A stretch of DNA of 64,000 bases from positions 124,001 to 188,000 of the forward strand of contig JAPKZO010000028.1 in assembly GCA_026393755.1 (NCBI GenBank), written 5' to 3'. This document shows positions 15,895-44,729 of this stretch, in pieces (the first letter of the stretch is position 1; each line of letters opens with the position of its first letter). The stretch comes from Acidobacteriota bacterium. Lineage in GTDB: Bacteria > Acidobacteriota > Vicinamibacteria > Vicinamibacterales > JAKQTR01. The notes under the pieces are model-generated. The model saw only the letters and a program-made list of their open reading frames with translations, made no database searches and was not told the DNA's origin. Both the position numbers and the translations under genes were made by a program.

Positions 15895-18165
15895 TTAGAA
15901 CTCCACCCGCAGGCCCCCGACGTACGTCCGGCCCCACTGATAGGTCGGCTTCGGGCGGCGGAGCCTCCGGTCCCACTGGTAGATCAGCAGGTTGTCGCGG
16001 TCATAGAGGTTGTCGACCTCGAAGTAGACGATCGCTGACGCGCGGCCGCGCGTCAACGTCTTGTCGACGCGAACGTCCAACCGATGGTACGGCGCGTACT
16101 CGAGAGTGTTGATGCGCGTCAGATCAAAGACCGCCCGGCCCGCCTTGATCGAGGCCGTCGGGCTGAATGGCGTATAGGGATGACCGCTCACGTAGCGCCA
16201 CCGCAGGCTGGCAGCCCAGTTCGCGGGGCGGGTGTAGTTCAGTTCCAGTCTGGCCTGATGGCGAAGTTCGTGCTGGGCCCGCCGCCAGACATTGTCGAAG
16301 CCCATCTGTGACACCCGCCAGTACGAGTAGTTGGCGACAACCTTGAGATGCTCGCCGGGACTCGCCGACACCACGGTATCGACACCTCGGGCACGAACTC
16401 TGCCGCCGCTTGTCAGCTGCCCGACAAACGGCGATTCGAAGTCCGCCACCGCGTCAACCAGCACATGGCCTGGCGCCAGGCGGTCAACCGGGTAGTTGCG
16501 GTAGTGCTTGTCGAATCCTTCGATGCCAAGGTGAACCCCGCGGTGCATTTCAAGATCAACACCCCCACCGCCCTGTGTCGACGCGATCGGGACAAGCGAC
16601 ACGTTCTGCGGCGCGCTCGCCATCCAGATGTAGGGCACGGCCTGTCGATATTCGCCCCAGTAGCCGACCAGCCTCGCCCGGTTCCCGAGCAGGTAGTCGC
16701 CCTTGAGGCGCGGGCTTCCCGTCGTGATCCCCGACGCGCCCCATCTGTCGACACGCAGGCCCGCTGACACCCGGCCCCGGCCGAACAGCGGCTTCGTCGT
16801 CTCGACGTATCCGGCGACATCGGCGAACGACTGCCGGCTCTTCGCCGAGATGTTCTCGCGAATCGGCGAATAGGGCGTCCAGACGCCGTACGCGAGCAAC
16901 TCGTAGTCGAACGTGAAGGCCTTGACGGCCAGGCCAGCCAGCACGCTGCCAATCCGCGTCTGCCGCCGCAGATCGGCTCTGAACCTGATGTCCACATCGC
17001 GCCCGCGATCGAGTCCATCGACGATGGCCCCGTTCCGGGACTTTGCGTCGATCTCGCTCGTGCCAATGCTCGCCACCACGGTCGAGGCGGTCTTCGGCGA
17101 CCAGGTCGAGTCCAGCCTCACCCCGGCCAGACCGACCCGTTCAGTGCCGTCGATCCGGTCCGTCCCTCCGTCGTAATCCTCGATCTGGACGGAATCACTG
17201 GCTCCGATGCCAAGGAACCTGACACTGTGTCTGCCGCCCACCCTCCGTTCGACGCGCACCAGTGCGTCCGCGTACTTCGGGACGACCTGCCCTCCCTCCT
17301 CGTGGAACGTCAATTCGAGCAGGCTGCGCCGCACGGAAACGACCCATGACCCCTTGCCGTCGCCAAACGGCCGTTCGATCTCGCCCATCGCGCCGCCGAC
17401 GCCAAAGCCCAGCATGCCGTGCAGGCGGCCGGCCTTTGCCGGCCGCAGCGAGATGTCGGCGACCGAGGACATCCGTTCGCCAAACGAGGCGGAGAACCCG
17501 CCAGCCTCGATCGTGCCGACATCGATGAGCCACGGCGGGATCATCGACAGGCCTCCGCCGGTGCCGCCCTGCGCCCCGAAGTGATTCGGGTTTGGCACAT
17601 CGAACCCGTCGATGCGCGTCTGGTTCTCTATGGCGCCTCCCCCACGCACGAGCAGGTCGTTGCGGTTGTCCTGGGAAGCGGCCACGCCGGGTTGCGACTG
17701 AAACGCGCGGAACACGTCCTCGAGCGCGCCAGGGGCAGCCGCAATCGCGGCTCCCGTCAACACTGGTGCAGCCGCGTTCGTGATGGTCGTCGCGTCGGGC
17801 AATCGTGGAGCGGCGCCTCTGGACTCGACCTGCATCTTCAGCCGATACGCCACCTCGACGATGGCGTCGCACGGCGCTCCCGCGAGTTCAACGCGGAGCG
17901 GTGAGATCTCGGCGAAGCCCGGCGCGGACGCGGCCAGCAGATATGAGCCGCGCGCCAGGTTCAGGAGTTCGAAGCCGCCGTCGGCGCTGGTGGTCGTGGA
18001 TGCCGCGACGGTGTCGTCGTGCCGCGCGACGACGTCCACGCCAGCCACGCCGGCGCGCGACGCCTGGTCCACGACCGTTCCGGACAGGCGGCACGGACCC
18101 GGCTGCTGCGACGCAGCTTGCAGCAGGATGGCGACACCGATCGCCCCGATCGCGCCAACGGCCAT
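15895..18165 (-). CDS. TonB-dependent receptor-like outer-membrane protein with carboxypeptidase-regulatory-like N-terminus
   Basis: This 756-residue protein begins with a short signal segment (VGAIGAIGVAILLQAASQQ) and a carboxypeptidase-regulatory-like domain (CRLSGTVVDQASRAGVAGVD...). A plug-like region follows (DLLVRGGGAIENQTRIDGFD), then an outer-membrane barrel ending in a terminal Phe (GGLRVEF), the usual C-terminal signature for barrel insertion. The ATG overlaps the stop codon of the upstream ABC permease by 1 nt (TAATG), so it is the last gene of the efflux operon. Its ligand is unknown. The linkage suggests a role with the pump, either in regulation or in retrieval of the exported compound. 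A GC-rich perfect inverted repeat lies inside it at 17425-17446. Confidence 0.86.
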   Translation of the reverse strand: MAVGAIGAIGVAILLQAASQQPGPCRLSGTVVDQASRAGVAGVDVVARHDDTVAASTTTSADGGFELLNLARGSYLLAASAPGFAEISPLRVELAGAPCDAIVEVAYRLKMQVESRGAAPRLPDATTITNAAAPVLTGAAIAAAPGALEDVFRAFQSQPGVAASQDNRNDLLVRGGGAIENQTRIDGFDVPNPNHFGAQGGTGGGLSMIPPWLIDVGTIEAGGFSASFGERMSSVADISLRPAKAGRLHGMLGFGVGGAMGEIERPFGDGKGSWVVSVRRSLLELTFHEEGGQVVPKYADALVRVERRVGGRHSVRFLGIGASDSVQIEDYDGGTDRIDGTERVGLAGVRLDSTWSPKTASTVVASIGTSEIDAKSRNGAIVDGLDRGRDVDIRFRADLRRQTRIGSVLAGLAVKAFTFDYELLAYGVWTPYSPIRENISAKSRQSFADVAGYVETTKPLFGRGRVSAGLRVDRWGASGITTGSPRLKGDYLLGNRARLVGYWGEYRQAVPYIWMASAPQNVSLVPIASTQGGGGVDLEMHRGVHLGIEGFDKHYRNYPVDRLAPGHVLVDAVADFESPFVGQLTSGGRVRARGVDTVVSASPGEHLKVVANYSYWRVSQMGFDNVWRRAQHELRHQARLELNYTRPANWAASLRWRYVSGHPYTPFSPTASIKAGRAVFDLTRINTLEYAPYHRLDVRVDKTLTRGRASAIVYFEVDNLYDRDNLLIYQWDRRLRRPKPTYQWGRTYVGGLRVEF
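17425..17446. repeat. Intragenic GC-rich inverted repeat (9-bp arms)
   Basis: GCGGCCGGC (17425-17433) and GCCGGCCGC (17438-17446) are separated by CTTT. A related but imperfect GGCCGGC-TTTG-CGGCC element lies at about 4578-4596 (minus reading) in the M14 gene. Confidence 0.5.
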
Positions 18166-19292
18166 TACCTGAGCGTCTTTCTAGACCGCATGGTGGCCAG
18201 TGTGAGCACGGTCACTCCCCACGCCAGCATCATCAGCGCGTCCGGCCAGAACGATTCCAATCCAACGCCCTTCAGGAAGATCCCGCGGACGATGACCAGG
18301 AAGTACCTGAGCGGAATCAGGTACGTGAGGGGCTGAATGACGCGGGGCATGTTCTCGATTGGAAAGATGAACCCGGACAGGTAGATCATCGGAACGACGA
18401 AGAAGAACACCGCCGTCATCATGGCCTGCTGCTGCGTCGCCGAGATGGTCGATACGAGCAGCCCGAGGCTCAGCGTGCACAACAGGTAGACCAGTGACAG
18501 CCCGAACAGCAGGGCGAAACTGCCCCGCAGCGGAATCTGAAACCACAGCACGGTCACCGCCACGACCAGGAACACCTGAATGACGCCAATCAGCCCGAAA
18601 GGCAGCAGCTTGCCGACGGTCAACTCCCATCGGCGAAGCGGCGTGACGTTGAGCTGTTCCAGCGTGCCCAGTTCCTTCTCCCGCACAATCGCCACGGCGC
18701 CGAGCACCGTCGTCGTGATCATCAACAGCAGTGCCAGCACGCCCGGTACCATGAACCACTGGCTCAGCAGTTGAGGGTTGAACCAGACGCGTGTGCGGGC
18801 CTCAATTGAGCCGACGGGCAGCACGACTCCGCCGGCACCCAGTCTCGACAGCGCCACGTCAACGGCCTTCTCCGCGATCAGGCTGGTGGCGTAAGCCAAT
18901 CCGACCGTAGCCGAATTCGAATCCGTGCCGTCGGCGATCACCTGCACGGTCACTGGAATGCCGTCGGCGATGTCCCGCCCGTAGCCGGCCGGAATTGATA
19001 CGGCCATCCACGCGGTGCGGTGCTGCAGCGCGTCATCAACATCCTGGTGCCGCGACGTCACGCCAGTCACGCTGAAGTACGGCGAGCCCTCGAACCGACC
19101 GATCAGATCGCGGCTGGCCACCGTTCGGTCCGCGTCGACGACCATCATGGGCACGTTCTTGACGTCCGTGGTCGCCGCATAGCCGAGGATCCCGAGCTGA
19201 AACACTGGTGCGATCAGCAGCACGCGCAGCATGCGAGGGTTGCGCTTGATCTCCTGGAATTCCTTGCGGATGAGAAAGCCGAGCCGTCGCAT
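18165..19292 (-). CDS. ABC-2 type permease (YbhR/YbhS-like), second of a pair
   Basis: This 375-residue protein has an N-terminal membrane segment (RVLLIAPVFQLGILGYAAT), a large periplasmic loop (about residues 35-175), then five hydrophobic segments, the plan of ABC-2 permeases of the YbhS/YbhR/DrrB family. The motif REKELGTLEQLNVTPLRRWE is the cytoplasmic coupling segment that meets the ATPase. It follows the other permease after 1 nt, so the two probably form a heterodimeric channel in the inner membrane energised by the ATPase(s) encoded upstream. Confidence 0.9.
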   Translation of the reverse strand: MRRLGFLIRKEFQEIKRNPRMLRVLLIAPVFQLGILGYAATTDVKNVPMMVVDADRTVASRDLIGRFEGSPYFSVTGVTSRHQDVDDALQHRTAWMAVSIPAGYGRDIADGIPVTVQVIADGTDSNSATVGLAYATSLIAEKAVDVALSRLGAGGVVLPVGSIEARTRVWFNPQLLSQWFMVPGVLALLLMITTTVLGAVAIVREKELGTLEQLNVTPLRRWELTVGKLLPFGLIGVIQVFLVVAVTVLWFQIPLRGSFALLFGLSLVYLLCTLSLGLLVSTISATQQQAMMTAVFFFVVPMIYLSGFIFPIENMPRVIQPLTYLIPLRYFLVIVRGIFLKGVGLESFWPDALMMLAWGVTVLTLATMRSRKTLR

Positions 19293-19293
19293 C

Positions 19294-20412
19294 TCAGACC
19301 TTCTCCTTTCCGAGTCGCACCGAGGCCAGCCCGAGCACGCCTACGGCATATACGCCAAGCGCCACCAGTTGCGTGCTGACGACGTGCAGGTCGACGCCCT
19401 TCAAGACGATGGCTCGCAGCGCGGCGAGAAAGTAGCGGGCGGGCACGACGTACGTGATGGCCCGAATTGGCGCGGGCATGCTGGCGATGGGAAAGATGAA
19501 GCCGGACAGAATGATGGTCGGCAGCATCGAGATCAGCAGGCTGACCTGAAACGCGAGCGATTGGGAATCGACCAGCGTAGACACCAGCAGCCCGGTGCCC
19601 AGCGCGCCAACCAGGAACAGCGACACCGCAAACAGCAGGAGCAGCCACGATCCCCGCATCGGCAGCCCGAACAGCAGCATCGCGGCCGCAATGATGAAGA
19701 ACGCCGACACCAGCGAAATCGCGAAGTACGGAATCGTCTTGCCGACCACGTACGACACGTTGCTGATCGGGGCCATCCGCACCTGTTCCCACGTGCCACG
19801 TTCCTTTTCGCGCACGATCGACATCGATGTGGACACGACACTGCTGATCATCACGATGAACCCGATCAGGCCCGGCACCAGGAACAGCGTGCTGGTGAGT
19901 TCGGGGTTGTACCAGATGCGCGGCTCGGCGGAGATCGGCGGCTGCAGACGGCCCCCGGTGATGATCTCCAGTTGAAGTTGCGCGGACACGCCGCGAACGA
20001 TCGCCTGCGCGTACCCGAATACCGTGGTTGCCGTGTTGGCGTTGTCGCCGTTGATCAGCACCTGCACCTGCGCGACGCGGCCGGACCTCAGGTCGCGGCT
20101 CATGCCCTCCGGAATGACCAGCGCCGCGCGGATCTCGCCGCGGTCCATGAGCCGCTCGATGTCGGTCATCGAGGTCACGGTGGCAACGATGTCGAAGAAC
20201 GTCGAGTGGGTGAACGACGAGATCAGCTCCCGGCTGTCGGGATTGTGCTCGCGATCCATCACGGCCAGCCGGATGTGCCGGATATCGAAGTTGAGGGCGT
20301 ATCCGTAGAGCCCGAGGAAGAAGGCGGGGACAAACAGCAGAATCATCAGGGTGCGCCCGTCGCGCACGATCTGCCAGAACTCCTTGCGGCCGACAGCCAG
20401 GGCCTTTCTCAT
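19294..20412 (-). CDS. ABC-2 type permease (YbhS/YbhR-like), first of a pair
   Basis: This 372-residue protein has the same topology as its downstream partner: a first membrane segment (LMILLFVPAFFLGLYGYAL), a periplasmic loop to about residue 170, then five membrane segments. The coupling helix motif REKERGTWEQVRMAPISNVS is conserved. Its ATG overlaps the stop of the ATPase gene by 4 nt (ATGA). Similarity to the next gene suggests an old duplication. Exported substrate unknown; homologous systems move drugs, cations or lipids. Confidence 0.9.
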   Translation of the reverse strand: MRKALAVGRKEFWQIVRDGRTLMILLFVPAFFLGLYGYALNFDIRHIRLAVMDREHNPDSRELISSFTHSTFFDIVATVTSMTDIERLMDRGEIRAALVIPEGMSRDLRSGRVAQVQVLINGDNANTATTVFGYAQAIVRGVSAQLQLEIITGGRLQPPISAEPRIWYNPELTSTLFLVPGLIGFIVMISSVVSTSMSIVREKERGTWEQVRMAPISNVSYVVGKTIPYFAISLVSAFFIIAAAMLLFGLPMRGSWLLLLFAVSLFLVGALGTGLLVSTLVDSQSLAFQVSLLISMLPTIILSGFIFPIASMPAPIRAITYVVPARYFLAALRAIVLKGVDLHVVSTQLVALGVYAVGVLGLASVRLGKEKV

Positions 20413-21344
20413 GCCGGGCCTCCGCCTGCGCGTTCGACCACGTCCATGAACACGTCCTCGAGCGACGGCTGCACGAACTCAATGGAGTCGGTCTTCAGGC
20501 CCAGCTCGGCGAACCGATCCACGAGCGGCTGCGTGTCGCGCTTGCCCGGCCGGAGCCACACGTGAAGGGCGGTGCCGAACAGGCTCGTTTTCTCAACCGA
20601 CGGAACCGCGTCCAACGCGCGCAGCGCCTCCATCGGCGAGGGCGTGCGCACTTCGACCACCGCGCGGTCGGCGAACACGCCCTTCAGTTCGTGAACGGTG
20701 CCGAGCGCGGCAATCCGGCCGGCCTGCATCAGCGCCAGGCGGTGACAGTGTTCGGCTTCGTCGAGGTAGTGCGTGGTCACGAATACCGTCACGCCGCCTT
20801 GTGACAGTTGATGGATGAGCGCCCAGAACTGGCGGCGCGACACCGGGTCGACGCCGCCCGTGGGCTCGTCAAGGAAGAGGATGGGCGGTTCGTGGAGAAT
20901 CGCGCATCCGAGCGCCAGCCGTTGCCGCCATCCGCCGGCCAGGTCGCGGGCGAGCGTGCGTTCCCGGCCGTGCAGACCGGCCATCTCCAGCACAAAGTCC
21001 CGGCGCCGGGCGATGGCTTGGTCATCGAGACCGTAGAGGCCGCCGAAGAACGTGATGTTCTCCTCGACCGTCAGCAGTTCATAGAGCGAGAACCGCTGCG
21101 ACATGTACCCGATCCGGCGCTTGACGTTTTCCGGGTCGCGGCCGACGTCGATGCCGCCGACCAGAGCCGTGCCGGAAGTTGGTTTGAGCAGTCCGCACAG
21201 CATCCGGATCGTCGTGGATTTGCCCGCGCCGTTGGCGCCGAGGAACCCGAAGATCTCACCCTGTGCGACGTCGAACGACACGTGGTCCACGGCCACGAAT
21301 GCGCCGAAGCGCCGTGTGAGATCGCGAACCGTGACAGCCGGCAT
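20409..21344 (-). CDS. ABC transporter ATP-binding protein (efflux), permease-linked
   Basis: This 311-residue ATPase has Walker A GANGAGKST, signature LAGGWRQRLALGCA, Walker B ILFLDEPTGGVDP and a switch His in VTTHYLDEAEHC. The C-terminal ~80 residues (DRAVVEVRTPSPMEALRALD...) form the extra domain of DrrA/YbhF-type exporters. In E. coli YbhF two such ATPase domains are fused; here they are separate genes (this one and 22806-23732). The palindromic repeat block 21368-21424 begins 24 bp upstream of this ATG and separates the gene from tolC-like 21432-22799. Other cluster junctions are only a few nucleotides apart. Confidence 0.92.
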   Translation of the reverse strand: MPAVTVRDLTRRFGAFVAVDHVSFDVAQGEIFGFLGANGAGKSTTIRMLCGLLKPTSGTALVGGIDVGRDPENVKRRIGYMSQRFSLYELLTVEENITFFGGLYGLDDQAIARRRDFVLEMAGLHGRERTLARDLAGGWRQRLALGCAILHEPPILFLDEPTGGVDPVSRRQFWALIHQLSQGGVTVFVTTHYLDEAEHCHRLALMQAGRIAALGTVHELKGVFADRAVVEVRTPSPMEALRALDAVPSVEKTSLFGTALHVWLRPGKRDTQPLVDRFAELGLKTDSIEFVQPSLEDVFMDVVERAGGGPA

Positions 21345-21367
21345 CCAGTGATCCCCTACACCAAGCC

Positions 21368-21424
21368 AATTACTCCCGGAGTAATTGTTCCCGAACGTTC
21401 GGGAACAATCACTCCGGGAGTGGT
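21368..21424. repeat. Composite palindromic repeat: 19-bp element, perfect 20-bp palindrome, inverted 19-bp element
   Basis: The left part AATTACTCCCGGAGTAATT (21368-21386) has perfect 9-bp arms around one C. The centre GTTCCCGAACGTTCGGGAAC (21387-21406) is a perfect 20-bp palindrome. The right part AATCACTCCGGGAGTGGT (21407-21424) is the same element inverted. The whole 57 bp is a near-symmetric structure about 21396/21397. It lies between the tolC-like and ATPase genes of the efflux cluster. The 19-bp element recurs at 37864-37972 and 44635-44729. It could be an operator, an intra-operon RNA hairpin, or a REP-like element. Confidence 0.85.
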
Positions 21425-21431
21425 CGTCCGA

Positions 21432-22799
21432 TCAACGGCCGATTGTGCGATCGAGCCTGGCCTGGGCCAGCTTGACCGCCGCCAGCGTGCGCGTGCGGTC
21501 GAGCTTCGCGCCGAGCAGCGCCTGCTGCGCGTCGAGCACGTCCGTGTTCGACGCGAGGCCGGCCTTGAAGCGCTCGGCGACAACGCGCCTCGCCTCGGTG
21601 GCGCTCGCCACCTCGGCGGTGGCCGCGCCAATCGACGCCACGGCTGAGGTCAAATCGAGCTGCCGCTGCCGCACGTCGAAGTCGAGCACGGCGTCGGACT
21701 CGGCCAGCCGCTGCTGTGCGGCTCGCTCGGCGGCGCTGACCTGCGCCACTTCGGCTTTGACTCGTCCCGCGTCCCACAACAGCCACGCGACGTTGACGCC
21801 GACGTCCCACGACTCGTTCCATGCGCCCGCGCGCGGGAAGATCCTCGGGTTGGGGCGGGCGTAATCGACGCCGCCGCCCACCGACACGACAGGCTTCGAC
21901 GCAGCCGCAGCCGCCGTGCGTTGCTGGCCGACACCCTCGGCGCGAAATTGCAGGGCCTGACGCTCGGGACGGTCCTTCCTGGCCTCGGCCAGCAGTTGGT
22001 CGAACGGCGGAATGCCCGGCGGCGGTCCGTCGAGCGCTGCGGCAAGATCGATGCGGACGGTCGGCCCAAGGCCCGTTGCCCGCCGCAGGTCGGCATCGGC
22101 GACGTCGCGGGCGTTCCGCACTTCAATCAGCAGCACCTGCTGGCGCGAACGGTTCGTCTCGGCGGTCAGGACGTCATTGGGCGCGACCAGCCCGACGGCC
22201 AGCATGTTGCGCACATCCTGGAGGTGGGCCTCGACCAGCTTCAGGGCTTCTTCAACGACCTTGACCGACTCGCTCGCGGTCACCAGCGTCCAGAACGCGC
22301 GCGCGGCATCGAGCCGGATGTCGGCCCGCACCGTGGCCACGTCCTTCCCCGCAGCGTCCTGCTCGGCCTGCGCCGCTCGACCGAGTGCCGCCAGCCGCCC
22401 GGACGTGTAGACGGGCCACTGCACATCGAGACGCGTTCGCCAGTTGTCCGGCAGGTCGGGATAGATCACGCGCGGCGGCGTGCCGGGAATCTGAATCGCA
22501 AACTCGTCGACATGATTGGTCCGGGTATACCCGCCAAGCAGATTGAGAATGGGCTTGCCGGCGCTCGCCCGAACGGCGGCACCCGCCTTGGCCGCGTCTT
22601 CGCGCGCCTCGAAATCACCGAGGCGATGACTGGCCTTGAGCGCCAACTCGATCGCATCAGCCACCGTCAGACGGACGGAGTCCGGTGCGCCTGCCGTCCC
22701 GGCGGTCTGCGCCCGCCCGCTCGCGGCGCAGGCCAGCATCATCGCGGCCAGCGTGCCGGTGACACAGACAATCTGACTTGTTCTGTTTCTCATGGTCAT
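21432..22799 (-). CDS. TolC family outer-membrane efflux protein
   Basis: This 455-residue protein has a signal peptide (IVCVTGTLAAMMLACAASGR) and two tandem TolC/OEP repeats of long helices with Ala/Gln/Asp-rich heptads (for example AAQAEQDAAGKDVATVRADI and TAEVASATEARRVVAERFKA). Length is typical. It forms the trimeric outer-membrane duct of a tripartite pump and lies between the two ATPase genes. Two adjacent starts exist, 22799 and 22793. The second has AGGA at proper spacing; the first overlaps it in frame. Confidence 0.92.
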   Translation of the reverse strand: MTMRNRTSQIVCVTGTLAAMMLACAASGRAQTAGTAGAPDSVRLTVADAIELALKASHRLGDFEAREDAAKAGAAVRASAGKPILNLLGGYTRTNHVDEFAIQIPGTPPRVIYPDLPDNWRTRLDVQWPVYTSGRLAALGRAAQAEQDAAGKDVATVRADIRLDAARAFWTLVTASESVKVVEEALKLVEAHLQDVRNMLAVGLVAPNDVLTAETNRSRQQVLLIEVRNARDVADADLRRATGLGPTVRIDLAAALDGPPPGIPPFDQLLAEARKDRPERQALQFRAEGVGQQRTAAAAASKPVVSVGGGVDYARPNPRIFPRAGAWNESWDVGVNVAWLLWDAGRVKAEVAQVSAAERAAQQRLAESDAVLDFDVRQRQLDLTSAVASIGAATAEVASATEARRVVAERFKAGLASNTDVLDAQQALLGAKLDRTRTLAAVKLAQARLDRTIGR

Positions 22800-22805
22800 C
22801 CTGCG

Positions 22806-23732
22806 TTATTGCGCGCGAGTCACGCGGTCGATGAACACATCCTCGAGGCTGGTCGCCACCACGCGGAGGCTGGTGACCTCGACACCGGCCCGTTGGAGCG
22901 CCCCGCCCATCCGCGCGACCGCCGCTTCTCCCTGGCCCTTCTCCAGCCGTGCGTGCAGGCGTTCGCCAAACGTCTGGACGTCCCGCACGCCCGCATCCTG
23001 CTGCACGACGGCCAGGGCCTTCTCCTGCGGCTCGGCAATCACCTCCACGATCTCGCCCGGGAAGGTGGCGCGAATCGCCGACGGATGGTCGAGCGCCAGC
23101 ACGAGCCCCTCGCTCATCAGCGCCACACGCGAGCAACGCTCGGCTTCGTCCAGATACGGCGTCGCCATGAAGATCGTGATGCCCTGCGACAGGAACTCCG
23201 ACAGCAGCCGCCAGAACTCGCGGCGCGACACGGGATCGACTCCCGTCGTCGGTTCGTCGAGCAGCACGACATTGGGCTCGTGCACCAGCGTGCAGGCCAG
23301 CGCGAGCTTCTGCTTCATACCGCCCGACAGCTGGTCGGCGAGCCGATTCCGGAACCTGGTCAACTGCATCATGTCGAGCAGCCGGGTGCGCCGCGCCTGG
23401 TAGCCCTTCACGCCGTGGATCTCCGCGAAGAACGCGATGTTCTCGTCGATGGTGAGATCGCCGTAGAGGCTGAAACGCTGGGAGAAATAGCCGACCGTGC
23501 GGGTGATCGCGTGATGCTGCGTGATCGGGTCCTTGCCGAGCACGGTGATGGTGCCGCCATCGGCGCGTAGCAGGCCACAGAGCAAGCGAATTGTCGTGGT
23601 CTTGCCGGCGCCGTCCGGACCAATCAGCCCGAACATCTCGCCCTTCCGGACGTCGAACGACACGCCGCCGACGGCCTCCACCTGGCCGAAGCGCTTCGTC
23701 ACGTGGTCAAGCGTGATGGCGGCGTCGCTCAT
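22806..23732 (-). CDS. ABC transporter ATP-binding protein (efflux), HlyD-linked
   Basis: This 308-residue ATPase has Walker A GPDGAGKTTT, signature LSGGMKQKLALACT and Walker B VVLLDEPTTGVDP. The position after Walker B reads ATPYLDEAERC, with Pro where the switch His normally sits (TxHY/TxHD), whereas the partner ATPase at 20409-21344 keeps His. This one may therefore be the less active half of an asymmetric pair, as often seen in heterodimeric ABC exporters. ATG at 23732 is preferred over a TTG at 23747. It begins 21 nt after the HlyD-like gene and corresponds to one half of YbhF. Confidence 0.9.
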   Translation of the reverse strand: MSDAAITLDHVTKRFGQVEAVGGVSFDVRKGEMFGLIGPDGAGKTTTIRLLCGLLRADGGTITVLGKDPITQHHAITRTVGYFSQRFSLYGDLTIDENIAFFAEIHGVKGYQARRTRLLDMMQLTRFRNRLADQLSGGMKQKLALACTLVHEPNVVLLDEPTTGVDPVSRREFWRLLSEFLSQGITIFMATPYLDEAERCSRVALMSEGLVLALDHPSAIRATFPGEIVEVIAEPQEKALAVVQQDAGVRDVQTFGERLHARLEKGQGEAAVARMGGALQRAGVEVTSLRVVATSLEDVFIDRVTRAQ

Positions 23733-23753
23733 ACGGGTGTGCGGCAATCGCGG

Positions 23754-24794
23754 CTACTTCGCGAACAGGATCTCCGCCTCGACAGGCATGCCCTGCTTCA
23801 GCACGCCCTTGCGGTTGTCCACGCTCACCTTCAGCCGGAAGACCAGTTTCGATCGCTCGTCGGCGGTCTGAACATTGCGCGGCGTGAATTCGGCCTTGGC
23901 AGAGATAAACGTTATCTTGCCCTCGATGCCAGGCCCCCCGGCATCCGTGTAGAGCGTGACGGTCTGGCCCAGCGACACCTTGGGCACCAGGGGCTCGTCC
24001 AGGTACACGTTTGCCCACACGTTGTCGAGGTCGGCCATCACAACGAGCGGCACTCCCGGCGCGTGGAGTTCTCCCTGATCGACCATCTTCTGCGTGACCA
24101 AGCCGCTGATGGGCGCCAACACCGTCGCATCCTTGATGCCCTTATTGACGATCCCGATCTGGGCGTCGATGGAGGCAAGGCGCGCGCGGGCGGCCTCGAT
24201 CTCTTCGGGGCGGGCACCTGCCTTGAGCCGGTTGAGCGCCTCGGCCGAGGCGCGGACCCGCTGCTCGGCGCTCGTGACGCGTTTGCTGGCCATCTCTTTT
24301 CTGCTCGCCGCATCATCGCGCTGCTTCTCGACGCCTGAATTGGCGGCCATCAGCGACTCGAAGCGCTTGAGATCCCGGTCGGCAGCCATCAGATCTTCCC
24401 TGGCCGCGGCCAGATCGGCCTCACCGCCCGCACGCGTCGCCTCGGCCTGCCGGACATCCTCGACGCGCGCACCGGCGAGCAGCAGACGAAGTTGCGCGTC
24501 GGCGACCTCGCGATCCGCCTGCGCCCGCTTGAGGATCAGCAGCGCGTCGGCCGTGTCGATCTGCGCCACGACGCTGCCGGCGGCAACGCGGTCCCCCTCG
24601 GCCACCTTCAGGTCGAGCAGGCGGCCGCCGACTTCCGCGGACACCTGCACTTCGGTGGCCTCGACGTAACCCGACACGCGGACACGGTCGGCCGGTGCCT
24701 TCTTCGCGCACGACGGCCCGGTCAACAGGACGGCCGCGGCGGCGGCCCAGACGGTGGCGTGGCGCAGGATCTGGCGGTGCATAAACGGCGTCAT
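23754..24794 (-). CDS. HlyD/YbhG-type periplasmic membrane-fusion lipoprotein
   Basis: This protein of about 346 residues begins MTPFMHRQILRHATVWAAAA and has a lipobox ending at a Cys (LLTGPSCAKK), so it is probably lipid-anchored to the inner membrane. The barrel-sandwich half-motif (VSGYVEATEVQVSAEVGGRL) and its partner (LAPISGLVTQKMVDQGELHA) flank a long helical hairpin (residues ~100-210). This adaptor joins the ABC permeases to the TolC-like duct. ATG 24794 is supported by GGAG 8 nt upstream; a longer frame would overlap the divergent gene. It is the first gene of the efflux operon. Confidence 0.9.
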   Translation of the reverse strand: MTPFMHRQILRHATVWAAAAAVLLTGPSCAKKAPADRVRVSGYVEATEVQVSAEVGGRLLDLKVAEGDRVAAGSVVAQIDTADALLILKRAQADREVADAQLRLLLAGARVEDVRQAEATRAGGEADLAAAREDLMAADRDLKRFESLMAANSGVEKQRDDAASRKEMASKRVTSAEQRVRASAEALNRLKAGARPEEIEAARARLASIDAQIGIVNKGIKDATVLAPISGLVTQKMVDQGELHAPGVPLVVMADLDNVWANVYLDEPLVPKVSLGQTVTLYTDAGGPGIEGKITFISAKAEFTPRNVQTADERSKLVFRLKVSVDNRKGVLKQGMPVEAEILFAK

Positions 24795-24812
24795 GGACGG
24801 TCTCCGTCTTGA

Positions 24813-24818
24813 TATTCT
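24813..24818 (+). promoter_or_regulatory. -10 box of a probable leaderless promoter (TIGR01777 gene)
   Basis: TATTCT ends 6 nt before the ATG at 24825 and no Shine-Dalgarno is visible. Only 30 bp separate this start codon from the divergent HlyD start at 24794, so the two promoters must overlap each other or the opposite genes. Confidence 0.5.
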
Positions 24819-24824
24819 GTACCG

Positions 24825-25742
24825 ATGCGAATCCTTGTCGCCGGCGGATCGGGCTTCCTTGGCAGCCATCTTACGACTGCCCTCACCGCCGCCGGCCACG
24901 ATGTCAGCATTCTCTCACGTCGGGCGAATCCGGGATCTGCAAGCCGCGCGACGGGCCCGCGGACGATCGCCTGGACACCCGATGGCTCAGCGGGTCTCTG
25001 GGCGAAGGCCTGCGGCCCGATCGACGCCATCTTTAACCTCGCCGGCGAGTCGATTGGCGACGGCCGATGGTCGCCGGCGCGCAAGGCCGCGCTCGTCGCC
25101 AGCCGCGTCAACGCCACCCGAACCCTCGTGCACTTCATCGATCGGGCATCGCCCCGGCCATCGCTGCTGATCAACGCGTCGGCGATTGGTTTCTACGGTG
25201 ATCGCGGCAACGACGTCCTGACCGAAGACGCCGGAGCCGGTTCAGACTTTCTCGCCTCGCTCTGCAATGACTGGGAAACCGAAGCGCGCCTGGCACAGAG
25301 CGGCGAAACCAGGGTCGTTCTGCTGCGCACCGGCCTCGTCCTCGACCCACGCGGCGGCGCGCTGGCCAAAATGCTGTTGCCGTTCAGGCTGTTCGCGGGA
25401 GGGCCGTTCGGATCGGGCCGCCAGTTTGTGTCGTGGATTCACCGCGACGACTGGGTGGCCCTTGCGGTGTGGCTGCTTGCTGCACAGAACGTCTCGGGTC
25501 CGGTCAATGCAACGGCGCCAGCCCCGGTGACCAATGCGGAGTTCGCTCGTACGCTCGGTCGCGCGCTGCGCCGACCGTCGTGGCTGCCCGCCCCGGCCTT
25601 CGCCCTGAGAGCGGCGCTCGGCGAGATGGCCGGCCCGCTGCTCCTGTTCAGCCAGCGCGTCATGCCCGAGCGCGCGATCAGCGCCGGGTTTTCGTTCAGG
25701 TACGCCACGCTGGAGCGCGCGTTGTCGAATCTGCTCACTTGA
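24825..25742 (+). CDS. TIGR01777 family NAD(P)-dependent epimerase/SDR39U1-like protein
   Basis: This 305-residue extended-type SDR has the N-terminal nucleotide motif GGSGFLGSHL (residues 7-16), followed by FNLAGESIGDGRWSPARKAA, which is typical of TIGR01777 (NLAGExI...RW), INASAIGFYGDRGNDVLTED and the C-terminal ALRRPSWLPAPAFALRAALGEM domain (DUF1731-like). E. coli YfcH is a homologue. The substrate is not established for the family. Its 3' end overlaps the convergent VWFA gene by 8 bp. Confidence 0.93.
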   Translation: MRILVAGGSGFLGSHLTTALTAAGHDVSILSRRANPGSASRATGPRTIAWTPDGSAGLWAKACGPIDAIFNLAGESIGDGRWSPARKAALVASRVNATRTLVHFIDRASPRPSLLINASAIGFYGDRGNDVLTEDAGAGSDFLASLCNDWETEARLAQSGETRVVLLRTGLVLDPRGGALAKMLLPFRLFAGGPFGSGRQFVSWIHRDDWVALAVWLLAAQNVSGPVNATAPAPVTNAEFARTLGRALRRPSWLPAPAFALRAALGEMAGPLLLFSQRVMPERAISAGFSFRYATLERALSNLLT

Positions 25743-27855
25743 CGATCTTGATTTCGGTCTCGGCCTTCACCTGGAAGCGCCGGAACTTCGAATACGTGGC
25801 GACCGCGTCGATTGCCCCGACAGTCGCGTCGATCGAGCTGTACGGGCTCCGAGAGTAGGCCTCCTTCATCTCGACCGGCACCCACAAACCTAACGTCGGA
25901 TCCCTTGTGTACTTGACGGTAAACTCGATAATGCTCTCGCTGGGAAAGGTGAACTCCATCCGCGAACCGGTGATCGCGCCGCTTGCGGGATCGATCAGGA
26001 ACCACCCGCGAGCGGCAATGTCGGTATCCTGGTTGTGCCGCACGAGCGTGGGCCGCCCCGTTTCTTCGTAGTCGATCCGCGTGGAGACCACACCGCCAAC
26101 CTCCTCGGTCCCGCCGAGCTTGAAGCGAGCGCGCCAGAGGTTCTTGTGCTCCAGGAACGACAATGCGAAAAGGGGCACGTTGATATTCCGCTGGATCTGG
26201 CCGATGTTGTACCTGGCGCTCTCGTTCTTGATCAGCACCAGCTGAGCCTGGGCTTCGGTGCTCGAATCGAGAAAGAGCCGCTTCAGGCGATCATCGTGAT
26301 CGCGCACGGCCTGGCCATTCACTTCGTAGACGTCGCGGAACGACACCCAGCCGTCGGTGCGCTCCGGCCGGACCAGCAGGAGATCGGATCGGATCTGCTG
26401 GCTTTGGTACTTCGTCGACTGAATGTAGGTCTCCTCGGCCACCAGCAGCGAATACTCGCGCTCGTACCCGGCGACATAGTCGGCGGCGCGGGCCACCAGT
26501 CGCTGCAGTTCGATCTCGCGCGGCGACAGGGTGGCAGGCGCGGCTGCCGGTGAGCTCGCCCGCGCGTTTGACGACCGGCTGGGCACCACGCCCGGAGCGG
26601 CCGTAGCGTTCTCGATCGGCGGCGCGGCCACCGCCGGAACCAGGTCGTCGACGTCCGCTCGCGGAACGAACCACCCCGGGGCGCGAACGGTGAGCGATTG
26701 TCGCGGTGTCTCGACGCGCAGGGTGTGGCGGCCGCCATCGGCATCGGCCGGTCCCGCTTCGATTCCCAGGACATAGCTCGCAGCGAGTTCCGGCATCACA
26801 CGCTCGAGGCTCTTGTCCGCGTTCTTGCCGAGCATCGTGAACGTGCCGCCGGTCGCCCTGGCCAGCCGCTCCACTGCCCCGACATCGAACCGGTCGGCCA
26901 CGTCGTCGCGGGCACCGGGCAGGCCAATCGCGTAGATGGTCGCGTGCGCCGCCAGGGCCGCGCGCGCAACATCGGCGATTCTCGATTCCTCGCCCTGGGA
27001 AAATCCTGTCGAGAATATTGCAATGATCTTGCGGCCGCGCGACTCCCGCACCGCGTCCAGCGTACGCTGGAAGTGGTGAAGAAATCCTGGCTGCAAAGCG
27101 GCCTCGTCGTCTACTCGGCCCGAAACGCGGTGTTCGTCCGGCGGGCGCTCGCGCTCTGGAGGTGCGGACCGGTCGGGATCGCCGGCCGCGCGGCTCGAGT
27201 CGATTACGGGAATCTGTGGCTTGGCAAAGGGTGAAGCCACGCCCAGTCCAGGCGATGGCGCGGCTTGCCCGACAATCTGGCCCAAAGCCTTCCGAACGTC
27301 CGGCCGATCGGTCGTCAGGGCCAACTGCCCGTCGCGCGCGACAGGAATGCGGAGAACCCCGACGCGATCGTCGAGACCCAGGCGGTCGACCAGCGCTGCA
27401 GCCGCCTGGCCCACCAGGCGTTCGCTTCCACGCAGAATCGAAAACTCGTCGACTACGACAAGGACGTTGCGAGCCGGTTCGGCAGCAAAGCTGAGTGTGT
27501 CCGTGCGACCGGACAGGCGCCGCGCAGCCTCGCCTGTCGCACCAGGGCCTCGGCTCACATAACGCACCCACAACACGCGCCGTGGCTTGCCATCGACGGC
27601 GACGGCAAAACTGGACGGTGTCAGGCCGTCGGCGACCTTGCCATCCCTGGTCACGACGACGATCTCGACCGGAATGGCCGGAACCTGTCCGGCCGGTGGC
27701 GTCTGTTGCGCGGCGATCACGCTGCCGGCGAGAACCGGGAGAGCTGTCGGCAGGGTCTTTGGATCTGGAGGCCGGGTCTTCAGACCCGGCAACAGCACAA
27801 CAAGCGCGCACGTCGCCGCGAAGCCGAAATTTCGAAAGCGGCGCGCTTGAAACAT
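25735..27855 (-). CDS. VWFA-related Acidobacteriota-type protein (TIGR03436-like), exported
   Basis: This protein of about 706 residues has a signal-like N-terminus (FGFAATCALVVLLPGL), a von Willebrand A domain (RNVLVVVDEFSILRGSERLV, a degenerate metal site, and KIIAIFSTGFSQGEESRI), and a C-terminal half (from about residue 440) ending in SSIDATVGAIDAVATYSKFR. The VWFA family TIGR03436 is widespread in Acidobacteriota and of unknown function. The canonical MIDAS motif DxSxS reads DEFSI here, so metal binding is uncertain. A 20-bp near-palindrome (27771-27790) is embedded in the codons just after the signal peptide. ATG 27855 is chosen; TTG 27858 is adjacent. Confidence 0.85.
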   Translation of the reverse strand: MFQARRFRNFGFAATCALVVLLPGLKTRPPDPKTLPTALPVLAGSVIAAQQTPPAGQVPAIPVEIVVVTRDGKVADGLTPSSFAVAVDGKPRRVLWVRYVSRGPGATGEAARRLSGRTDTLSFAAEPARNVLVVVDEFSILRGSERLVGQAAAALVDRLGLDDRVGVLRIPVARDGQLALTTDRPDVRKALGQIVGQAAPSPGLGVASPFAKPQIPVIDSSRAAGDPDRSAPPERERPPDEHRVSGRVDDEAALQPGFLHHFQRTLDAVRESRGRKIIAIFSTGFSQGEESRIADVARAALAAHATIYAIGLPGARDDVADRFDVGAVERLARATGGTFTMLGKNADKSLERVMPELAASYVLGIEAGPADADGGRHTLRVETPRQSLTVRAPGWFVPRADVDDLVPAVAAPPIENATAAPGVVPSRSSNARASSPAAAPATLSPREIELQRLVARAADYVAGYEREYSLLVAEETYIQSTKYQSQQIRSDLLLVRPERTDGWVSFRDVYEVNGQAVRDHDDRLKRLFLDSSTEAQAQLVLIKNESARYNIGQIQRNINVPLFALSFLEHKNLWRARFKLGGTEEVGGVVSTRIDYEETGRPTLVRHNQDTDIAARGWFLIDPASGAITGSRMEFTFPSESIIEFTVKYTRDPTLGLWVPVEMKEAYSRSPYSSIDATVGAIDAVATYSKFRRFQVKAETEIKIVK
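27771..27790. repeat. 20-bp near-palindrome inside the VWFA gene
   Basis: GCCGGGTCTTCAGACCCGGC has 9-bp arms around TC. Read on the minus strand it supplies the codons PGLKTRP directly behind the signal peptide, a position that tolerates insertions. Only one copy occurs here. Confidence 0.55.
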
Positions 27856-37863: not shown

Positions 37864-37972
37864 AATCACTCCCGGAGTAATTAGGTCGTGGCCAATCACT
37901 CCCGGAGTAATTGGGTAGTGGCTACTCACTCCCGGAGTAATTAGGGTGTGGCTAATCACTCCGGAGTGGTTT
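37864..37972. repeat. Array of four 19-bp interrupted palindromes on a 30-bp period
   Basis: Copies begin at 37864, 37894, 37924 and 37954, exactly 30 bp apart. The first two are AATCACTCCCGGAGTAATT, the third differs at one base and the fourth is shortened (AATCACTCCGGAGTGGTTT). The core is ACTCC-C-GGAGT. Interposed 11-bp segments are similar but not identical (AGGTCGTGGCC, GGGTAGTGGCT, AGGGTGTGGCT). The array lies between the TonB-dependent receptor-like gene and the PLP enzyme, about -25 to -133 relative to the ATG of the latter. The 30-bp step places every copy on the same DNA face. Confidence 0.9.
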
Positions 37973-37980
37973 GCTCACGC

Positions 37981-40641
37981 TCAGAATGTGAACCGGGCGC
38001 CTACCTGGAGTTTGCGGGGTTGTGAGGCGGCCAGCGGCCGGCCAAAGAACGGCGACGTCATCACAAAGCTGTAGGCGGTGTAGTTGGTGCGATTGAGCAG
38101 GTTCTGACCCGATACATAGAACTCCAGCCGAAGGCGCTTGTCAGCGGCCGCGCCGCCAAATCCTGGCGCCAGACCACCGCCGCCCCCGGCATTGATGACC
38201 ACCTGCCCGCCCCCCGGACCGCCCGCCTGTCTCGGCGTCCCGAATCCAAATCCATACGAGATTCGGCCGCCAAGATCCCACTGCGCCGCCCCTCGCGCGG
38301 AATTGCGCGCGACGCCCGCAGGACGATCGTTGAACACCCCATCGGCATTGTCATCGCGGCCCGTCGTAATGTTGAAGGGCATGCCCGACTGGCCTCGCAG
38401 GTTGATGCCGACGGTGACGTTGGGGATCGGCGAGATGTTGAATGACGCGCCAACCCGGTGGCGAATGTCCCCGGCACTCGGGCCCCACTCGGACTGAAGG
38501 GAGTCGCCGCTCGGAGGAATCGAGAACGCTCCAGTGGTGTTGGTCTCGCTCTTGCTCAACGTGTAGTTGAGCATGAGGAACATCCGCTTCTTGTCCATCC
38601 GCACAAAGCTGTAGTACATGCTGACGGCCTGAGATCGCGATGCGGCGTCGGTGACCAGTTCAACTCTGTTGGCGAAGGCGGGATCCGGCCGCACGCCGCC
38701 CGCCGGAGCGTTCAGGTTCCGGCCGCGCAGCAAGTCGATGCCCCAGCCGCGCGTGTAACTCACGCTGAGGCGTCCATTCTGTGAGAGCGTCCGGTCAACG
38801 CCCAGACTCACTCGATTCGCCGATGGCAATACCAGACTGTCGGACCACAAGTACTGATTGGTTGGCGCGGTCGCCCCATCGACACCGGGATCGGGATACG
38901 ACGGATTGAAGATGTTCGACTCGCGCTGCCGGTACCCGTCGACGAGCAGTGTCTGTTTGTATAGATCGCCCGCGAGCCAGTCGTAGAAGTAACCATAGCT
39001 TCCACGAAGAGTCATTCGCCCGTCCTTGAACGGCGACCACGCCGCCGACATGCGGGGCGAGAGGTTCCACCGGTCTGAGACCTGGCTCTGCACGCCATAC
39101 CGCACCCCCGGCGAGACCAGCAGGCTGCGCGTGATGCGGTAGTCGTCCTGAACATAGATGGCCGCGCGATACGTCGAGTACGTAACATTTGGATCGCCGA
39201 TCCTGCGCGAATAACTCATCGGCCGTCCCGCCAGAAAGTCCGTCAGGCTCGCAAACCCATACGTGCCAAGGTAATTGGTCGTGTCATCGGATCGGTATCG
39301 ACCGCCTTCGAGCAGGACTCCCGTCCGCCACGAATGCGCCCCCCGCACGTAGTCGAGATCGCTCGCCAGCTCGAACTCGGTTGAGCGCTGGCCGCCCCGC
39401 TGCTGCGCACCGCCGCTCGTGAAGGCGTCCTGCACGCGAATCGTCTCCGCCTCCACCGCCGATCGGTTGCTGGCGCCGGTCGTCTTCAGCTGAAAACGCG
39501 ACTCGGTAAAGAACTTGCGCCCAAGCGCGCCGTTTTCTGACATGCGCAGCAGGTTGGTAGACGACGAATTGTCGTAGGCGCGATCGAACAGGTTGAAACC
39601 GCCCACGCCAAGGCTGCGGGACGTGCTGCTGGTGCGGTCGACGCTGAGGCGCATCGCGTGGTCCCTGGTCAACGCGTGATCAAGGCGGGCGCTGAAGTTG
39701 TAGGCGTCCCGCGGCTGGCGCAGTGTGTCGGTCACCGTCGAACCGCTCGGGAGCACCGCGAGCAGGTTCGGTGACGTGTACTGCGACGAGCCGCCGCCAT
39801 TCAATGAGAATGACGTCTTGTTGGGCGTGATCGTGCCGGACAGGCTGGCGCCGTACTGCCGCAGTTGTTCCTGGGGCTTCGTGGTGGTGAACGGATTCCT
39901 CGCGTTGAAGGCATCATCCAGGAAGTGCACGTCGACGCTGCCCCGGATCGGTCCATTGCCTGGCATCGTCATGATGTCGATGAACATCATGCCGCTCATG
40001 CCGCCGTGATTCTGGGCCGCGAACATGTCGAGGCGCGGCAGGCGGATCGAACGAATCTGCGACTTGTGCGGCAGCCGGCCACCGGTGAATCCGTCGACGC
40101 GGATGACGGAGCCGGGCGGGGCCATCGCCTTGAGCACCTCCGCCATCTCGTCTGGATCGTCGGGCAAGGCGTCGATCTGGTCGCGCGTGAGCACAGTGCT
40201 GAAGGCGCTGCCTGCCGGATCCAGAGACGACGACTGTCGGTCGCGCCGCACCGTGATTTCCTGATCCAGCTTCTTGATGCGCAGCGTGATCCGACGCCGT
40301 GTTTCGGCGCCGCGCACGCGGACATCACGGACGTCGACCGGGTCAAAGCCGGGAAACTCCACGTGAATCGTGTAGCGACCCTCCGGCAGGCCCTCGACGA
40401 CCGCGATGCCGACGCCGTTCGTGGAGGTCGGCGGGATCGCGGCCGACTGCGTGAGGCTCTCGCTGCCCGTGACGGTTACGACGGCCAGCGGAATCACCGC
40501 CCCCGACTGGTCCGCCACCGTCATGACCAGACGCCCTCGCCGCTCTGGCGTTTGCGCAGAGGCTCCGCCCGCCGCCAGCACAGCGGCGGCCAGCGCGAAT
40601 CCGCAGGCAAACAACGCCCGGCGCGGCGTACGTCGCGTCAT
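37981..40641 (-). CDS. TonB-dependent receptor-like (Oar-type) outer-membrane protein with carboxypeptidase-regulatory-like domain
   Basis: This protein of about 886 residues has a signal peptide ([20 protein letters not shown]), an N-terminal carboxypeptidase-regulatory-like domain ([20 protein letters not shown]...), a plug region ([40 protein letters not shown]) and a large beta-barrel. The closing [15 protein letters not shown] ends in Phe, as expected for barrel assembly. It belongs with the Oar/TonB-like proteins abundant in Acidobacteriota; the ligand is unknown. ATG 40641 and GTG 40668 are both possible. Near residue 790 there is a Gly-rich loop ([20 protein letters not shown]). Confidence 0.87.
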
Positions 40642-40671
40642 GTCTCTGGAGTTGCTACGCGCCCGCACGGC

Positions 40672-44634: not shown

Positions 44635-44729
44635 AATCACTCCCGGTGTGATAATCACTCCCGGAGTAATTACGAAACTGTAATCACTCCGGGAGTAATT
44701 GGGCGGCGGTAATCACTCCGGGAGTGTTA
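44635..44729. repeat. Array of four copies of the 19-bp interrupted palindrome
   Basis: Copies begin at 44635 (degenerate), 44653, 44682 and 44711. The last three are spaced 29 bp and the first 18 bp from the second. Copy 44653 has the C-centred form AATCACTCCCGGAGTAATT; copies 44682 and 44711 have a G centre (AATCACTCCGGGAGTAATT and a variant). The interposed 10-bp segments differ. The array lies between the divergent vapBC promoter and the aminotransferase gene, ending 12 bp before its ATG at 44742. Confidence 0.88.

Follow-up and report, generated by a model that had tools for sequence, protein, structure and literature searches.

A 58-bp palindromic block in an acidobacterial efflux gene run very probably belongs to a dispersed, lineage-specific repeat family of REP/REPIN-like form

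In the broad sense set out in part of PMC12306157, REPs are short palindromic sequences that are extragenic, share a consensus and occur in multiple copies. According to the passages of PMC3733652 that deal with them, tagged REPs lie mostly between co-directional or convergent genes, CGTC-tagged REPs are without a dedicated transposase, and TIR repeats of TIRYT genes are noted for Acidobacteria. This work indicates that a block at 21368-21425 of the window, i.e., of the whole 64,000-nt stretch of DNA analysed here, very probably represents a copy of a non-autonomous dispersed repeat that is lineage-specific, forms hairpins and has a REP/REPIN-like form. Rather than a dedicated switch, the likeliest reading is a small mobile element whose arrival in this efflux gene cluster was fortuitous. 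A search of the literature on REP-like repeats in Acidobacteria, on REPIN/RAYT systems and on RAYT-free repeats found no description of this family, nor of its core string.

The block lies within a co-directional run of genes encoding an HlyD-type adaptor, an ABC ATPase, a TolC-like outer-membrane efflux (OEP) protein, a second ABC ATPase and two ABC2 permeases (Table 1). In line with an earlier note on this DNA, it separates the tolC-like gene from the second ATPase gene in a run where the other junctions are short: this gap of 87 nt is the sole long one, the neighbouring junctions measuring -1, 1, -4, 6 and 21 nt (the last value depends on start-codon choice and becomes 6 with a TTG start). 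Between the block and the ATPase start codon (21344) there are 23 nt. The 24-25 nt offset that the same note had seen both here and at the array starting at 37864 is real, but does not hold as a rule, arrays as a whole lying at a median of 80 nt from a gene 5' end. From a structural point of view, two 19-bp units in inverted order enclose a perfectly palindromic linker. The symmetry announced earlier was thus found again, while the length is 58 nt, one more than the 57 bp then given. The block is indeed the same element as that at 37864, and also as that at 44639-44725; the former array has a large minus-strand ORF (37981-40668) on one side and a PALP-family gene on the other. Such recurrence exceeds chance: when one mismatch is tolerated, the window contains 9 cores where 1.1 would be expected, a count reached by none of 100 shuffles, and a search for 20-bp arms that differ at three positions or fewer finds the block at 21368-21425 and the array near 44.65 kb, and nothing in 19 of 20 shuffles. 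What lies beyond chance is the combination of palindromes, the 20-bp palindrome being less improbable on its own.

Table 1. Coordinates of the block, its parts, the adjoining efflux genes and the related arrays of the window.
Feature	Position	Strand	Remarks
19-bp unit AATTACTCCCGGAGTAATT, central C, perfect arms AATTACTCC / GGAGTAATT	21368..21386	+	core at 21372-21382
Perfect 20-bp palindromic linker GTTCCCGAACGTTCGGGAAC	21387..21406	.	a single further near-copy in the genome
19-bp unit AATCACTCCGGGAGTGGTC, central G, inverted order	21407..21425	-	core at 21411-21421
58-bp inverted-symmetric composite, the dispersing unit	21368..21425	.	second copy at C40:71248-71305
Outer-membrane efflux protein (OEP, tolC-like) gene	21432..22799	-	upstream of the block
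ABC ATPase gene	20409..21344	-	downstream of the block; ATG at 21344
Two ABC2-type permease genes	18165..20412	-	downstream of the ATPase gene
Same-element array: three central-C units at 30-bp spacing and a decayed fourth	37864..37967	.	
Same-element array: a decayed unit, then C, G, G	44635..44729	.	upstream of an aminotransferase gene

At the scale of the 4.43-Mb genome, the core ACTCCSGGAGT was found in 138 exact copies, against 1 for the reversed control pattern, and 134 of these form the 69 arrays considered below (contigs are designated C, sequence stretches L and genomes G). According to our own codon-usage gene caller, 68 of the 69 arrays are intergenic, i.e., outside called genes. 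The building block of the repeat would be the 19-bp palindrome AATYACTCCSGGAGTRATT; decayed units are named from a loosened count, which includes some overlapping false units and was used for that sole purpose. Adjacent units are spaced by 29 or 30 bp in 52 of 65 cases, and in 31 of the 32 arrays having both kinds of unit no central-G unit precedes a central-C one, which makes the arrays inverted-symmetric as wholes. Their usual higher form would accordingly have C units on the left and G units on the right, joined by linkers of 10 or 11 nt or by longer, private ones. Indeed, a 10-nt linker of the ACAGTTTTGT type recurs in many arrays, alternating with GC-rich 11-nt linkers, and, of the 38 arrays with several units, 15 have the CG form, the most frequent one. 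A second genus (G034, G051) provided five doublets with the opposite order, G then C. Among lone exact units on the contig + strand, 23 have a central C and 8 a central G, where equal numbers are expected. Around the palindromes, the profile of 100 + 38 outer sides holds no conserved tetranucleotide other than AAT / GATT.

Some arrays are remarkable for their surroundings. Twelve of them occupy 13 kb (L031:6570-19450, corresponding to C28:290569-303433) between Phd/ParE, MNT/HepT, PIN, AAA_14-DUF4143 and sigma-54 activator modules, and some module ends of this supercluster are themselves repeated. Lengths of inter-array intervals recur, with 859-878 bp found four times and 1509-1519 bp also four times (once at the distant locus L035, 2168-3676); the enclosed genes differ and the recurrence may be due to chance. 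The sole genic array keeps the reading frame of the family-4 glycosyltransferase gene that contains it (L048:1779-3002, C21), with four exact units versus one in the congener, and by eye its expansion adds peptide repeats of the ITPGVI type.

The composite itself was found a second time, at C40:71248-71305, flanked by a DsbD_N-domain gene and by the gene of a TPR protein. The two copies are identical at 56 of 58 positions and their flanks at 13 of 41 on either side, which is the chance level; the composite has thus spread as one unit. A genome search for the 20-bp palindrome that allowed up to three mismatches gave just two sites, that of this block and C40:71267 (one mismatch), and both lie between two 19-mers. 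The combination that the earlier note had proposed to look for therefore does recur, once and between unrelated genes. Its view that two different units had been combined calls for rewording, as the palindrome behaves as a private linker of the composite and is never seen alone genome-wide. Other doublets are repeated too, with three related ones of 38 bp and two copies of the 39-bp doublet of the 21368-21425 block. From a mechanistic point of view, the composite would copy itself into intergenic DNA, mostly just behind stop codons, and arrays may later gain or lose 29/30-bp units through slippage. Against this explanation, slippage alone does not account for a central C/G that tracks the position in the array while the orientation of the linkers does not.

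The position of the arrays relative to genes was clearly uneven. When the array inside a gene is set aside, the remaining 68 lie at a median of 16 nt from a gene 3' end (25 nt or less in 37 of 65) and of 80 nt from a gene 5' end (25 nt or less in 11 of 71). Flanking genes are co-directional for 31 of the 69 arrays, divergent for 20 and convergent for 17, one array being inside a gene. The preference for 3' ends is in line with the placement of tagged REPs, while the divergent share (20/69) is not. A Pfam scan of 114 array-flanking genes (of 125 flanking proteins past the length filter, 11 were left out) revealed no function common to these neighbours. PADLOC matches were obtained among such genes, many of these matches being to what look like generic ATPase and kinase models.

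Comparison with relatives sheds light on the age of the insertion. OEP orthologs were identified in five relatives, with 83, 63, 61, 64 and 50% identity, and the gene order is kept, the same ATPase gene adjoining each of them. The orthologous junction is devoid of the block in all five, including the congener: the two genes overlap in one relative and are 37, 7, 7 and 35 nt apart in the others, as against 87 nt here. This argues against a conserved operator and for the recent insertion of a REPIN-like non-autonomous element. One composite would thus have landed between the tolC-like and ATPase genes since this lineage diverged from the closest relative available, through an act of transposition and an enzyme acting in trans, both of which we infer. 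At 83-87% identity, neither a target-site duplication nor a clean empty site was readable. The array at 44635..44729 is absent from the orthologous place in the congener, which retains a one-mismatch remnant, ACTCCGAGAGT, at the place orthologous to the 37864 array. On congener contig C5 (99 kb, taken whole), 0 of 5 mapped arrays have an exact core, and one, that at 37864, is represented by the remnant just mentioned. Conversely, at least four arrays share their position with the congener (C8:30306, C15:54354, C21:26824, C40:170529), with different unit numbers and linkers; this sharing is biased upward, since the comparison covered contig C5, 14 element-holding stretches (L091-L094, L110-L119) and L120, which holds a Y1_Tnp gene. 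Not every copy is therefore recent. Judging from these sequences, array turnover is high and some copies are old, and selection may act at some sites.

The taxonomic range of the repeat is narrow. Within the order, a near-complete 17-mer was detected in 6 of 162 genomes, namely the two that represent this genus, three of one genus of another family, and one with a single match. A slightly stricter pattern was found in 2 of 396 genomes drawn from the phylum, this one and the congener, the other genus being outside the draw. A contig scan with the perfect 17-mer matched once in each of 21 stretches from unrelated taxa, which we took as chance, and a plasmid collection gave no match to the repeat. 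Several soil viral contigs (L156, L158, L159 and others) carry several copies of RTTACTCCSGGAGTAAY, in an operator- or stoperator-like manner, and share the palindrome of the bacterial repeat.

Other explanations must be weighed against such a chance landing. The earlier note had suggested an internal operator or promoter; the palindromes would then be binding sites of a regulator under which the tolC part and the ATPase-permease genes are uncoupled, and whose regulon would be the 69 arrays. The high information of a palindrome present in 138 exact cores and the four array positions common with the congener speak in favor of this, as do the soil viral contigs, whose multiple and closely similar RTTACTCCSGGAGTAAY copies indicate that such a palindrome can look operator-like. 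It is nevertheless very unlikely, and is not supported for this operon, as the junction is empty in 5/5 relatives that keep the genes and the 19000-26000 region has no promoter-like site, sigma-70-like promoters included. Elsewhere, moreover, arrays hug gene 3' ends, lie between convergent genes in 17 of 69 cases and in one case in frame within the glycosyltransferase gene, and have neighbours without a common function. The strong RNA hairpin evoked by the same note was better borne out, provided that the block is transcribed: the predicted fold has a 23-bp stem and a 4-nt loop (z = -6.6, with 0 of 200 shuffles as stable), and RNA of either strand is predicted to form a long hairpin, of -44 and -42 kcal/mol, respectively. 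An RNA element kept by selection would use this hairpin to terminate, pause, stabilise or direct cleavage of the mRNA, thereby setting the TolC : ATPase : permease stoichiometry, in line with so stable a fold and with the proximity of upstream stop codons, where 3'-UTR hairpins would be expected. We consider it quite unlikely, as the block is not conserved at this junction, lacks a T-tract and goes unreported in the terminator scan of 19000-26000, and as 20 of 69 arrays lie between divergent genes, where they would often fall outside mRNA 3' ends. The more specific case of an intrinsic terminator was rejected on the missing T-run after the stem and on the same silent scan, and the window gave no match in Rfam. 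Under the preferred reading of a dispersed repeat, the modelled 23-bp stem may still affect the downstream ATPase and permease genes of this species, weakly and incidentally, as a possible RNase III substrate or as an obstacle to ribosomes or RNA polymerase.

Integron attC sites are defined by a RYYYAAC...GTTRRRY pair and a link to intI. The repeat could be such a gene-cassette recombination site and the toxin-antitoxin-rich supercluster, with an array between nearly every gene module, a cassette array. This fits the 12 arrays in 13 kb (C28:290569-303433) that separate Phd/ParE, MNT/HepT, PIN and AAA_14-DUF4143 modules, and both this genome and the congener do have an integron-type integrase gene scoring above the curated cut-off. 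However, the stretches of 3-20 kb that surround the integrase genes (L150-L154) contain no exact core, a home-made scan found no attC-like R''/R' pair in L031, L150, L151, L152, L154 or the window, and the repeat is dispersed genome-wide, mostly outside gene clusters. On the missing core and the missing pair, attC was rejected as extremely improbable. The integrase genes of L150 (C36:101592-102536) and L151 (congener C16) are near contig ends, in stretches with no recognisable attC array. CRISPR loci consist of repeats with unique spacers of ~25-50 nt and of cas genes, and were rejected too, the linkers between 19-mers being mostly 10-11 nt long and recurrent.

The question then arises of what mobilises the dispersed repeat. 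RAYT-borne REPs and REPINs flank the gene of a RAYT-type transposase (Y1_Tnp, PF01797). No match to such a transposase was obtained in this genome, a draft assembly in which a gene may have been missed. The congener has two Y1_Tnp genes, one flanked by a different repeat (L114) and the other without a copy of this core nearby (L120). A RAYT was thus rejected as the resident mobiliser. The repeat flanking the former gene (L114:10596-11685, on C30) is the palindromic CCTGGGATCGCCGGGCTCCAGCCCGGC, which also fills the congener gap orthologous to the 37.86-kb array and is a candidate RAYT-linked repeat. Among the 114 array-adjacent genes, AAA_14 was the most-matched Pfam family (5, and DUF4143 in 3). 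Arrays lie within 600 bp on both sides of 3 of the 10 AAA_14 genes of this genome (C28:231011, 295282, 302404), versus 0.1% of random 1250-bp intervals. By eye, from listed positions, 2 of 6 AAA_14 genes are likewise bracketed in G034, from another family of the order (C18:10261 and C309:3148), and 0 of 8 in G001 (among the sites listed), 0 of 3 in G024 and 0 of 4 in G051, all three of which carry the core. The AAA_14-DUF4143 ATPase gene bracketed by palindromes might be the autonomous form, or the partner, of an undescribed RAYT-free mobile system, a speculative and rather unlikely proposal. The sober alternative is an island bias, two of the three cases here being in one toxin-antitoxin-rich supercluster. 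If the proposal were true, DUF4143, still labelled in Pfam as a domain of unknown function, would gain a role in mobilising hairpin repeats; bracketed genes in two distant genera offer a specific candidate.

This family adds a tag-less and RAYT-less palindromic repeat, with an odd polarity (C units left, G units right), to those described, and it makes the question of what moves REP-like repeats without RAYT concrete and testable. It also calls for caution, as a symmetric block by a start codon need not be an operator. With regard to MITEs, which have terminal inverted repeats and a target-site duplication, the inverted symmetry is present, the state of the target site being unreadable at 83-87% identity. 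Intrinsic terminators place a stable RNA hairpin behind genes. The block is similar in this respect, and also to BIMEs as characterised in part of PMC2817692; unlike terminators and BIMEs, it has no T-run and is not conserved at the junction. The TIRs of TIRYT genes, in the passages of PMC3733652 concerning them, are self-complementary, dimeric or clustered, as is the repeat studied here; they flank a tyrosine transposase gene, whereas none was found in this genome and those of the congener are not flanked by this repeat. The CGTC-tagged REPs of the same source share with it the lack of a dedicated transposase and differ in sequence and in their tag, the 100 + 38 outer sides showing no conserved GTAG/CGTC tetranucleotide beside the palindrome, where tagged REPs have theirs unpaired at one end. 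This absence of a tag, together with that of a Y1_Tnp gene, makes the repeat REP-like by form and places it outside the described tagged superfamilies. Unlike REPs and REPINs, it forms regular 29/30-bp arrays in a genome devoid of a RAYT gene and, unlike REPs, shows no shortage of copies between divergent genes. In its form, by contrast, it has all five features of REPs in the broad sense, with 68 of 69 arrays intergenic, 138 copies and a 19-bp palindrome, and that of REPINs, in which an inverted doublet is the replicating unit, as seen in the CG form (15/38) and in the composite duplicated as a whole. As in the REPs and REPINs of Pseudomonas and others, in the parts of PMC3116915 and PMC3733652 that describe them, the palindromes are short, intergenic, near 3' ends and present in more than 100 copies, and they combine into inverted doublets folding into one hairpin and, in some cases, into tandem clusters.
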